In this document: piece by piece, positions 9,559 to 11,463 of the stretch
Layout of the letters: each line of letters begins with the position of its first letter
Numbering within the stretch: the stretch's first letter is position 1
Assembly (NCBI GenBank): GCA_030694425.1
Contig: JAUXYI010000063.1
Span: forward strand, 121,150-154,504
Length of the DNA: 33,355 nt
Source: Thermodesulfovibrionia bacterium
GTDB lineage: Bacteria; Nitrospirota; Thermodesulfovibrionia; UBA6902; BMS3Bbin08
Reading direction: 5' to 3'
The notes under the pieces: generated by a model
What the model was told of the DNA's origin: nothing
Database searches by the model: none
The model's input: the letters and a program-made list of their open reading frames with translations, nothing else
Translations under genes and position numbers: made by a program

Positions 9559-9672
9559 CCGGCAGCGTCCTACTTTCCCAGGGCCTCACGGCCCAAGTAT
9601 CATCGGCCCAAGAGAGCTTAACTTCCGTGTTCGGAATGGGAACGGGTGTTTCCCCTCTGGCATAGCCACCGG
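9559..9672 (-). rRNA. rrf: 5S ribosomal RNA
   Basis: The minus strand contains the conserved 5S core CCGTTCCCATTCCGAACACG and GGAAGTTAAGC, then CTTGGGCCGTGAGGCCCTGG and GAAAGTAGGACGCTGCCGG. The 5' end CCGGTGGC pairs fully with the 3' end GCTGCCGG, which sets the limits at 114 bases. No 23S 3' end lies upstream: the 103 bases to the next gene are AT-rich spacer. Confidence 0.95.
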
Positions 9673-9698
9673 AAACCTTATTTCTTAAAGACCAAAGA

Positions 9699-9728
9699 AT
9701 AATAACATCAAATTATTGAAAATTGCAA
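9699..9728 (-). promoter_or_regulatory. Possible sigma-70 promoter for stand-alone 5S rRNA
   Basis: The minus strand has TTGCAA (9728-9723), an 18-base spacer, and TATTAT (9704-9699): 4/6 and 5/6 matches to consensus. Transcription would start about 20 bases before the 5S 5' end. This is a sequence match only. Confidence 0.35.
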
Positions 9729-9775
9729 ATCTGATTTGTAATTAACTCATTATTCTGCCGTTGAAATTTTTTGGT

Positions 9776-10927
9776 TCAGCGGTATATATGCTTATGCAGG
9801 AATTGTTTCCAGTTCATAATCAGGACATGACCAAGCCTGTAAGGCTCATCAGTATTGCAAACGACATAGCAGGGCACATCAGGATAATCTTCCTGAAAAG
9901 ACTTTAATCCAGTAAGCTGCGCTGTGGTAATTGTTTTAGACCACTTTATTTCATAAGCGCCTGTAAGCTTGCCTGATTGTTCCATTAACAAATCTACTTC
10001 TGCTCCGGCGTTTGTCCGCCAATAGTGCAGATTGATCATCTTCTGTGAAGTCTTGATCCATTTCATTGTTTCCATAATGATAAACTGTTCGAATAATCTG
10101 CCGAGAAGATAAGGGTCGGAAATAGCATGATCATAACGGTTAATTATATTCGTAACACCATTGTCAAATAAGTAAAATTTGGGATGACCTGAAAGCCGTT
10201 TCCGCATGCTCTTCCTCCACGGTTCCAAACGAAAACCAATAAGGGTGTCCACGAGGATTTCATAATAAGTCTTAACAGTCATTACAGCTTGCTGACACTC
10301 ACGGGCAACTGCTGAATAATTTACAACCTCACCAAACTGACTGGCCGCCATATCGAGAAACCTTGAAAATGAACCAATCTGCCGGACAATGCCTTCAGCC
10401 TGAATCTCTTCCCGAAGGTAAATATCAACATATGCGTTCAGGATGTCAATTTTGTCTACCCCTGTTTCGGCAAGAAAAACAGGAGGAAGTGACCCAAAAC
10501 GCAGGAAATGCATAAGCTGGGCCTTTTCAGAGACTTCGTGCCACATAAAAGGAAAAAGAAACCGTTGCACAGCCCGCCCACCGAGAAGGTTGGCATAGCC
10601 TCGCTTAAGTTTTCTGGCGCTGGAACCAGACATTATAAAATGCAATGATGTGGTATCAACAAGATACTGAACTTCATTTAAAAGATCAGGGACGCGTTGT
10701 ATCTCATCAATAAAGACATGTGTTATGCTTTTCTTTTTTTCCATAACTTCTTTTCGCAGCAGGGAGGGGTCTTTTAAGTATTTGAAGAACTGGTCACTCA
10801 GTAGCAGATTAACCTTAAAGATTTTGTCCTGAAAAACACTGTTGATAAGGGTGGTTTTCCCAGATTGCCGGGGGCCAAATAAAAAGAATGATTTGTTTGG
10901 AGGCAGTTTAAGAATTCTATTTATCAT
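9776..10927 (-). CDS. AAA-type ATPase with C-terminal DUF4143/nuclease-like domain
   Basis: The 383-residue protein has the layout of the AAA_14 plus DUF4143 family. Walker A is GPRQSGKTT (18-26), Walker B is VFIDEIQ (about 71-77), sensor-like SGSSARKLKRG follows, then a helical region. The C-terminus has YWRTNAGAEVDLLME and GAYEIKW, an E...VD...EIK pattern as in PD-(D/E)XK-like folds. Members are common, often mobile or multi-copy, and their function is not known. The gene sits exactly where 23S rRNA would be in an Ile-Ala-23S-5S operon. It ends 103 bases before 5S and starts about 200 bases after tRNA-Ala. No insertion-sequence ends are seen. Confidence 0.9.
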   Translation of the reverse strand: MINRILKLPPNKSFFLFGPRQSGKTTLINSVFQDKIFKVNLLLSDQFFKYLKDPSLLRKEVMEKKKSITHVFIDEIQRVPDLLNEVQYLVDTTSLHFIMSGSSARKLKRGYANLLGGRAVQRFLFPFMWHEVSEKAQLMHFLRFGSLPPVFLAETGVDKIDILNAYVDIYLREEIQAEGIVRQIGSFSRFLDMAASQFGEVVNYSAVARECQQAVMTVKTYYEILVDTLIGFRLEPWRKSMRKRLSGHPKFYLFDNGVTNIINRYDHAISDPYLLGRLFEQFIIMETMKWIKTSQKMINLHYWRTNAGAEVDLLMEQSGKLTGAYEIKWSKTITTAQLTGLKSFQEDYPDVPCYVVCNTDEPYRLGHVLIMNWKQFLHKHIYR

Positions 10928-11130
10928 GATGTAAAAGTGTACTACATATTTACAACGATGTCAAGAGCATAGGATGCTGCCATAAGAATGCCCAGAGACC
11001 TCAAGGCATTTTGCGCTGTTTTCAAGAAAAGGGTTTACGAAAGACTTGCTGAAACTGGCGGGAAAAGTTCAGGGTTATCAGGCTATTTTGTTAACAGGAG
11101 ATAAGTACTTAATATTTGGTAGGAAAATTT

Positions 11131-11206
11131 TGGTGGAGGTGAACGGGATCGAACCGATGACCTTCCCGTTGCAAACGGGATGCTCTCCCAACTGAGCTAC
11201 ACCCCC
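11131..11206 (-). tRNA. tRNA-Ala (anticodon TGC)
   Basis: The 76-base gene begins GGGGGTGTAGCTCAGTTGGG, has anticodon stem-loop CCCGTTTGCAACGGG, T-arm GGTTCGATCC and an encoded CCA end. The acceptor stem GGGGGTG pairs with the 3' CACCTCC with a G-U. It follows tRNA-Ile on the same strand, as in rRNA operon spacers. Confidence 0.96.
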
Positions 11207-11210
11207 GACC

Positions 11211-11330
11211 AAAAATTTGTGAACAAATTTTTGAGTGAATAGTTATTAGTGATTAGTTGTTAATAAAAAAAAGATTTCAAACTATTCACTAATCACTGTT
11301 AACTACAAATTTGGCAGTGCCAAATTTGTA
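11211..11330. repeat. Nested inverted repeats between the two tRNA genes
   Basis: AAAAATTTG-TGAA-CAAATTTTT lies at 11211-11232 and TACAAATTTGGCA-G-TGCCAAATTTGTA at 11304-11330, directly touching the CCA end of tRNA-Ile. Between them GTGAATAGT and TTAGTGATTAG have inverted partners ACTATTCAC and CTAATCACT. The spacer would fold into hairpins on both sides and may guide tRNA processing, or it is simply another repeat insertion. Confidence 0.65.
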
Positions 11331-11407
11331 TGGTGGGCCTAATTGGAGTCGAACCAATCACCTCACCCTTATCAGGGGTGCGCTCTAACCAACTGAGCTA
11401 TAGGCCC
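11331..11407 (-). tRNA. tRNA-Ile (anticodon GAT)
   Basis: The 77-base gene begins GGGCCTATAGCTCAGTTGG, has anticodon loop CTGATAA, T-arm GGTTCGACTCC and an encoded CCA end. GGGCCTA pairs with TAGGCCC. tRNA-Ile(GAT) followed by tRNA-Ala(TGC) is the usual 16S-23S spacer pair, but no 16S 3' end lies upstream. Confidence 0.96.
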
Positions 11408-11433
11408 GGAATACTTTCAGGATATAAATAATA

Positions 11434-11463
11434 AAAATACCTTAAAAAAAGAATGATTGTCAA
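11434..11463 (-). promoter_or_regulatory. Promoter for the tRNA-Ile/tRNA-Ala pair
   Basis: The minus strand has consensus TTGACA (11463-11458), an 18-base spacer and TATTTT (11439-11434), preceded by a very AT-rich stretch. The -10 box ends 26 bases before the tRNA-Ile 5' end. This supports a tRNA operon independent of 16S rRNA. Confidence 0.55.

Follow-up and report, generated by a model that had tools for sequence, protein, structure and literature searches.

Results

The window analysed here, a whole stretch of 33,355 nt from a Thermodesulfovibrionia bacterium (GenBank assembly GCA_030694425.1, contig JAUXYI010000063.1, positions 121,150 to 154,504), belongs to contig 48 of a bin that comprises 101 contigs and 2.42 Mb and is 96% complete. 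The minus strand of the window holds, in this order, tRNA-Ile(GAT), tRNA-Ala(TGC), the gene of a DUF4143/AAA_14 ATPase, a 5S rRNA gene and a strong terminator. The features of the locus and its neighbours, in window coordinates, are:

12109–13617, minus strand: gene of an HflX-like GTPase (Pfam GTP-bdg_N, GTP-bdg_M and MMR_HSR1), conserved upstream neighbour
11434–11463, minus strand: candidate promoter of the tRNA pair by motif match (TTGACA, 18 nt, TATTTT), ending 26 nt before tRNA-Ile
11331–11407, minus strand: tRNA-Ile (GAT), intact, CCA encoded
11131–11206, minus strand: tRNA-Ala (TGC), intact, CCA encoded
10936–10964, minus strand: candidate ATPase cassette promoter (TTGACA, 17 nt, TACACT), its −10 box covered by a partial palindrome
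9776–10927, minus strand: DUF4143/AAA_14 ATPase gene (Pfam), inserted between tRNA-Ala and 5S
9699–9728, minus strand: candidate promoter of 5S by motif match (TTGCAA, 18 nt, TATTAT; extended −10 TG), ending 25 nt before 5S
9557–9673, minus strand: 5S rRNA gene (Rfam, 107 bits, model positions 1–120 complete), sole match in the bin
9518–9549, minus strand: intrinsic terminator of 5S, a 14-pair stem followed by a T run
8514–9242, minus strand: atpB (ATP synthase subunit a; Pfam ATP-synt_A), conserved neighbour downstream of 5S

Both the tRNA calls and the Rfam 5S match agree with the operon order that the original prediction had given for the minus strand, and this order on a single strand is that of a canonical rRNA operon. 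Absent is the 16S gene that a canonical operon has before the spacer tRNAs, and a promoter-like site is found there instead. The interval from tRNA-Ala to 5S holds the ATPase gene and no 23S; the 5S gene of the window adjoins no 23S gene, as would be expected of a split set with a 16S-23S pair and 5S elsewhere. Rfam searches at gathering scores returned no SSU or LSU match anywhere in the window, and blastn with the 16S and 23S genes of relatives (word size 7, E ≤ 1e-3) was equally empty, leftover pieces included, as expected from the claim that no 16S precedes tRNA-Ile and no 23S precedes 5S. The terminator predicted behind 5S is present (9549–9518), and most of the 50 genomes that carry 5S were seen, by eye, to have a similar hairpin after the gene. 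The locus is a genuine remnant of a bacterial rRNA operon in which two tRNA genes and 5S were kept. In the spacer between tRNA-Ile and tRNA-Ala (11207–11330), we also noticed by eye a motif of the TTAGTGATTAGT type that is repeated, and short hairpin-like inverted repeats adjoining each of the two tRNAs.

The two promoters proposed earlier, TTGACA/TATTTT 26 bases before tRNA-Ile and a candidate just before 5S, were recovered at 11463–11434 and, as TTGCAA-18-TATTAT, at 9728–9699. Promoter-like sites are no rarity in the window taken by itself (13 observed, 7.2 expected), and it is because they recur at the same place in relatives that the sites before 5S and tRNA-Ile exceed chance. The pattern TTG[AC]NN, 15–20 nt, TA[TA]NNT precedes 5S in 34 of the 37 genomes of the order that could be used (mean 5.6 and maximum 11 in dinucleotide shuffles), and TTGAC[AT], 16–19 nt, TATNNT precedes tRNA-Ile in 10 of the 16 genomes with tRNA-Ile before 5S (mean 0.0, maximum 1; site absent in G006, G010, G017, G026, G043 and G049), counts that are not independent since the genomes share ancestry, though the sequence flanking the motifs has diverged. 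The 5S site mostly reads TTGCAA or TTGCAT with the extended −10 box TGTTATTAT, about 22 nt from the gene, and its strict form TTGC..TATTAT occurs in 19 of the 37 genomes (shuffle mean 0.1). Outside the order, the looser 5S pattern was found in 8 of 12 genomes (shuffle mean 1.1), and G052, with 23S still in place before 5S, has a readable promoter-like site. Given these occurrences outside the order and in a genome with linked 23S and 5S, the operon very likely had an internal 5S promoter prior to the split. Judged from the motif matches, separate promoters would drive the tRNA pair and 5S.

The ATPase (383 aa; DUF4143 and AAA_14 in Pfam) stands apart from these elements. Twelve copies, with 83–89% identity over the best segment, come from genomes that bear the labels Nitrospirae, Nitrospira or Thermodesulfovibrionales/-ia, names that would place the organism of the window in Nitrospirota, class Thermodesulfovibrionia. 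DNA similarity of the copies to the window covers about 37 nt upstream plus the open reading frame only, the sequence outside being different. The cassette promoter TTGACA-17-TACACT is kept before 13 gene copies, that of the window included, at otherwise mostly unrelated sites. Its −10 box lies within an inverted repeat of up to TGTAAAAGTG-TAATA-CACTTTTACA, with 10 of 10 pairs in L032 and 8 of 10 in the window. As the start codon follows only about 8 nt after the −10 box, the mRNA is probably leaderless. No relative carries this kind of ATPase at the same place, the sole match being 25% identical. The gene thus behaves like a self-contained cassette that was inserted later, after the split. 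The original prediction of an operon skeleton whose parts have their own promoters stands for the tRNA pair and 5S, each with a separate promoter-like site; the ATPase gene, which it had listed between tRNA-Ala and 5S, lies outside the skeleton and is an insertion with a conserved promoter of its own.

The 5S survey covered 60 relatives and the own genome (G000), 61 genomes altogether. Fifty of them have 5S, each with exactly one match. In 14 of the 50, tRNA-Ile and tRNA-Ala precede 5S and 16S and 23S are missing (G000, G006, G016, G017, G023, G024, G026, G028, G037, G039, G042, G043, G049 and G051; in G039 the 5S gene is cut by the contig end). In 6 genomes (G007, G015, G018, G027, G032 and G045) at least part of the tRNA-Ala sequence lies directly before 5S, and there the contig ends or is interrupted by N. 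23S directly precedes 5S in 8 genomes (G004, G033, G047, G052, G053, G054, G055 and G057), a count that includes G033 although its 70-bit 5S and about 76% identical 23S may stem from a contaminant contig. In another 15 neither tRNA nor 23S lies close to 5S, which is preceded by 1.2 kb or more of other sequence; G001 and G003 from the family of the window's genome are among them, so 5S does not always retain the tRNA pair beside it. A contig end within 450 nt upstream of 5S, with nothing recognised in between, accounts for 5 genomes, and G010 and G044 were set apart before counting, the latter for a 40-bit 5S overlapping tRNA-Ala. Downstream of 5S comes atpB in 31 genomes of families f1, f3 and f4, the own genome among them, at a distance of about 250–515 nt in 29 of the 31; on the upstream side, G000, G006, G016, G017 and G023 have the hflX-like gene. 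Since these neighbours recur across genomes, the site is orthologous and old. In the tightest cases tRNA-Ala ends 52–74 nt before 5S.

Two side observations were made on these clusters. The end of contig 8 of G010 (L129) carries a 240-nt 16S 3' end before tRNA-Ile, tRNA-Ala and 5S, with no 23S; this is probably a chimeric join at the contig end, as the genus mates G016 and G023 have no 16S end and the intervening sequence is GC-rich, the alternative being a true intermediate. Furthermore, in G024 (L132), G042 (L125) and G006 (L085) the intact tRNA-Ala is followed, before 5S begins, by the 3' half of a second tRNA-Ala copy, which spans about positions 44–76 in G024 and G042; G007 (L109) has only partial tRNA-Ala copies before the contig end. 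Such halves would fit integration into tRNA 3' ends; the interval, however, measures just about 60–310 nt.

For the 23S genes of relatives we combined Rfam scans with local blastn on genome stretches. Seven 16S-23S pairs (L070, L072, L074, L076, L077, L088 and L080, from G003, G005, G012, G018, G026, G039 and, as its second pair, G052) have a tRNA-free internal spacer of 93–219 nt and no 5S behind 23S; in the same-family pair L070 of G003 the middle of 23S is masked and both ends are visible. 16S and 23S are adjacent wherever both are readable, which applies to the seven pairs as well as to the canonical operon present in G052. This closed genome of one contig has a canonical 16S-Ile-Ala-23S-5S operon (L079) together with the 16S-23S pair L080, which is followed by rpoD. 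Downstream of 23S the two loci do not differ before the −35 region of the 5S promoter, from which point on L080 carries a hairpin in place of 5S. G004, G052, G055 and G057 each possess two distinct 23S 3' ends, of which one adjoins 5S and the other rpoD.

Overall, the 23S 3' end adjoins rpoD in 12 of the 17 rpoD loci examined (G002, G003, G004, G006, G007, G049, G051, G052, G055, G057, G059 and G060; no 23S beside rpoD in G005, G009, G020, G045 and G048). The 16S 5' end adjoins hrcA in 19 of 30 hrcA loci, namely 16 of 27 plus G021, G025 and G035 taken from coordinates. The hrcA loci without 16S are those of G001, G003, G004, G014, G017, G029, G034, G036, G052, G058 and G059, with the contig ending at hrcA in G003 and G017. 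Where read, hrcA is accompanied by grpE, dnaK and dnaJ (Pfam). Within the family of the window's genome, G002 has 16S beside hrcA and 23S beside rpoD, G003 has 23S beside rpoD, and hrcA of G001 is not beside 16S; an overlap between the ends of the hrcA and 16S contigs of G003, sought as proof of adjacency, was not found. In family f3 the pair lies beside hrcA and not beside rpoD (G005, G020 and G045 negative). Because of the exceptions at hrcA in G001 and at rpoD in f3, the neighbours of the 16S-23S pair are to be regarded as inconstant.

The own bin has a single 5S match, at the locus in the window. It gave no 16S or 23S match with the family models, of which the SSU model recognises only 9 of 14 control genomes; as this SSU search also missed near-complete relatives and is insensitive, its empty answers are weak. 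The 16S and 23S DNA of relatives found no match in the bin either, in DNA searches that had no positive control of their own. hrcA, of which 51 of the 61 genomes have one, has no match in the bin. Ortholog-level rpoD is absent, the best match being a paralog-like stretch of 51% identity, whereas rpoD orthologs of relatives are mostly 60–80% identical over their whole length; ortholog-level dnaK is absent as well, the query giving remote partial matches only. A plasmid search with polA found nothing. Because 16S, 23S, hrcA and ortholog-level rpoD and dnaK are all missing from the bin, and going by the relatives, the 16S-23S pair of this organism is probably carried, together with rpoD and perhaps also hrcA-grpE-dnaK-dnaJ (the dnaK cluster), by at least one unbinned contig. 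Our attempt to locate 16S and 23S, which the original prediction had called for, thus found neither in the own bin and, in relatives, adjacent pairs that are often beside rpoD or hrcA-grpE-dnaK-dnaJ. Independently of the rRNA genes, the lack of hrcA and of ortholog-level rpoD and dnaK in a bin that is 96% complete calls for caution when regulation is read from it.

Discussion

We propose that the locus arose by complementary decay of two operons, one of which kept tRNA-Ile, tRNA-Ala and 5S while the other kept 16S and 23S, and we consider this the probable explanation; as part of it, the locus would likely be a reduced yet working rRNA operon. An ancestor within the class would have had an operon A of the canonical form 16S-Ile-Ala-23S-5S and an operon B consisting of a 16S-23S pair beside rpoD, which had lost its spacer tRNAs and 5S. 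Since B duplicated just 16S and 23S, A could lose these two genes, as may have happened in several lineages, and since B offered no backup for tRNA-Ile, tRNA-Ala and 5S, which were unique to A, exactly these would be retained. 5S could have remained expressed after the deletion of 23S because its own promoter was already inside operon A, and the tRNA pair would be read from the promoter just upstream of tRNA-Ile. In the lineage of the window, the ATPase cassette with its own promoter would then have landed between tRNA-Ala and 5S, harmlessly, as 5S would need no read-through.

We infer the direction of change, complementary loss, from the distribution of these states, and the order of events, in which B lost 5S and the tRNAs before A lost 16S and 23S, is likewise read from present-day states. 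The states suggest that the loss in A may have happened more than once, because family f7 contains the split G051 beside G054 with linked 23S and 5S, and the order contains G004 with linked 23S and 5S beside the split families f1, f3 and f4. Taken across the class, these genomes may represent intermediate stages of an operon break-up that proceeded by complementary decay, was enabled by the pre-existing 5S promoter and occurred more than once, a wider claim towards which we only lean.

An alternative is that a complete canonical operon lies on an unbinned contig and the Ile-Ala-5S set is a dispensable extra copy in decay. The failure to find 16S and 23S in the bin leaves room for such an unseen operon. 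However, all 50 genomes with 5S have one match and no second, the 16S-23S pairs of relatives have neither tRNAs nor 5S, and at this locus the tRNAs and 5S are intact and the promoter-like sites conserved, which makes a relic rather unlikely. A single ancestral operon could also be the source of the Ile-Ala pair and 5S at the hflX-atpB site, by transfer or copying and with no two-operon stage. The gene neighbourhood speaks for this, as 5S of the window lies by atpB and the intact 23S-5S of G004 and G052 lie among other genes. Yet the three genes retain operon order and strand, the 52–74 nt between tRNA-Ala and 5S in the tight cases fit a deletion in place, and two-operon states are extant in G004, G052, G055 and G057, so that we judge a relocation unlikely.

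That 16S, 23S and 5S are all apart from one another is very unlikely: neither 16S nor 23S is in the window or was found in the bin, as full unlinking would have it, but both are adjacent in relatives wherever they can be read, including G003 from the same family. Short-read bins often lose rRNA genes, and many contigs of relatives do break inside 16S or 23S, which could make one suspect that both genes were dropped from a normal operon at this place during assembly. Such losses break contigs, however, and do not leave seamless spacers; the window contains no N, and the same cluster with its gene neighbours is present in other assemblies. The original prediction had argued for a natural arrangement over a collapsed assembly, and the recurrence of the cluster (14 of 50 genomes) and the atpB synteny (31 genomes) led us, too, to reject a collapse, which is hardly credible. 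Complementary decay of two operons therefore remains our preferred explanation.

Unlinked rRNA genes of bacteria and archaea were reportedly described by Brewer et al. in 2020. Rather than such unlinking in the published sense, which means a distance of more than 1.5 kb between 16S and 23S (PMC8178347; the criterion is also treated in PMC11261877) and which the original prediction had invoked, the relatives keep 16S and 23S together, and 5S and the spacer tRNAs have split off. Shared with unlinked genes are the distribution of rRNA genes over more than one operon and the need for separate promoters. In Mycoplasma flocculare, 5S is separated from a 16S-23S operon (PMC4357767), which resembles the present case with a 16S-23S pair and 5S elsewhere; the accessible portion of that report makes no mention of spacer tRNAs beside 5S or of a two-operon intermediate. 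In Borrelia burgdorferi the spacer tRNA-Ile is transcribed separately and the rRNA genes are in several transcripts (PMC3037291), features that are predicted from motifs here, but its 16S goes with tRNA-Ala and its 23S and 5S stay together. The canonical operon of G052 (L079) has the order and strand of tRNA-Ile, tRNA-Ala and 5S as well as the promoter-like site before 5S in common with our locus, which differs from it in lacking 16S and 23S and in the inserted ATPase gene. A 5S gene split from 16S-23S, a separately transcribed spacer tRNA-Ile and unlinked 16S and 23S are thus already in print. Within the literature searched, which covers the field in part, we found no precedent for the Ile-Ala-5S skeleton or the two-operon route, and, for Nitrospira-type bacteria, no direct one for a split-off 5S, for spacer tRNAs or for unlinked genes.

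The splitting of rRNA operons is mostly known from its end states. With intact, two-operon and split states side by side in one group of genomes, the route becomes reconstructable. Complementary decay would explain why amplicons spanning 16S and 23S should have short, tRNA-free spacers in these bacteria, and how 5S can be present in a good genome bin that has neither 16S nor 23S. A further prediction of this scheme is that 5S is transcribed from a different promoter than the large rRNAs, and that something other than co-transcription must keep them in balance.

Finally, the solitary ATPase unit (9776–10964 in the window; L031–L041 and L043) is found at mostly unrelated sites in many Nitrospirae-type genomes, and its conserved part consists of a 37-nt predicted leaderless promoter with an operator-like palindrome and the open reading frame. 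It has the look of a mobile cassette. For several copies a tRNA gene is found no farther than about 160 nt away, namely for Lys (L031), Glu (L032), SeC (L033 and L041) and Arg (L038).
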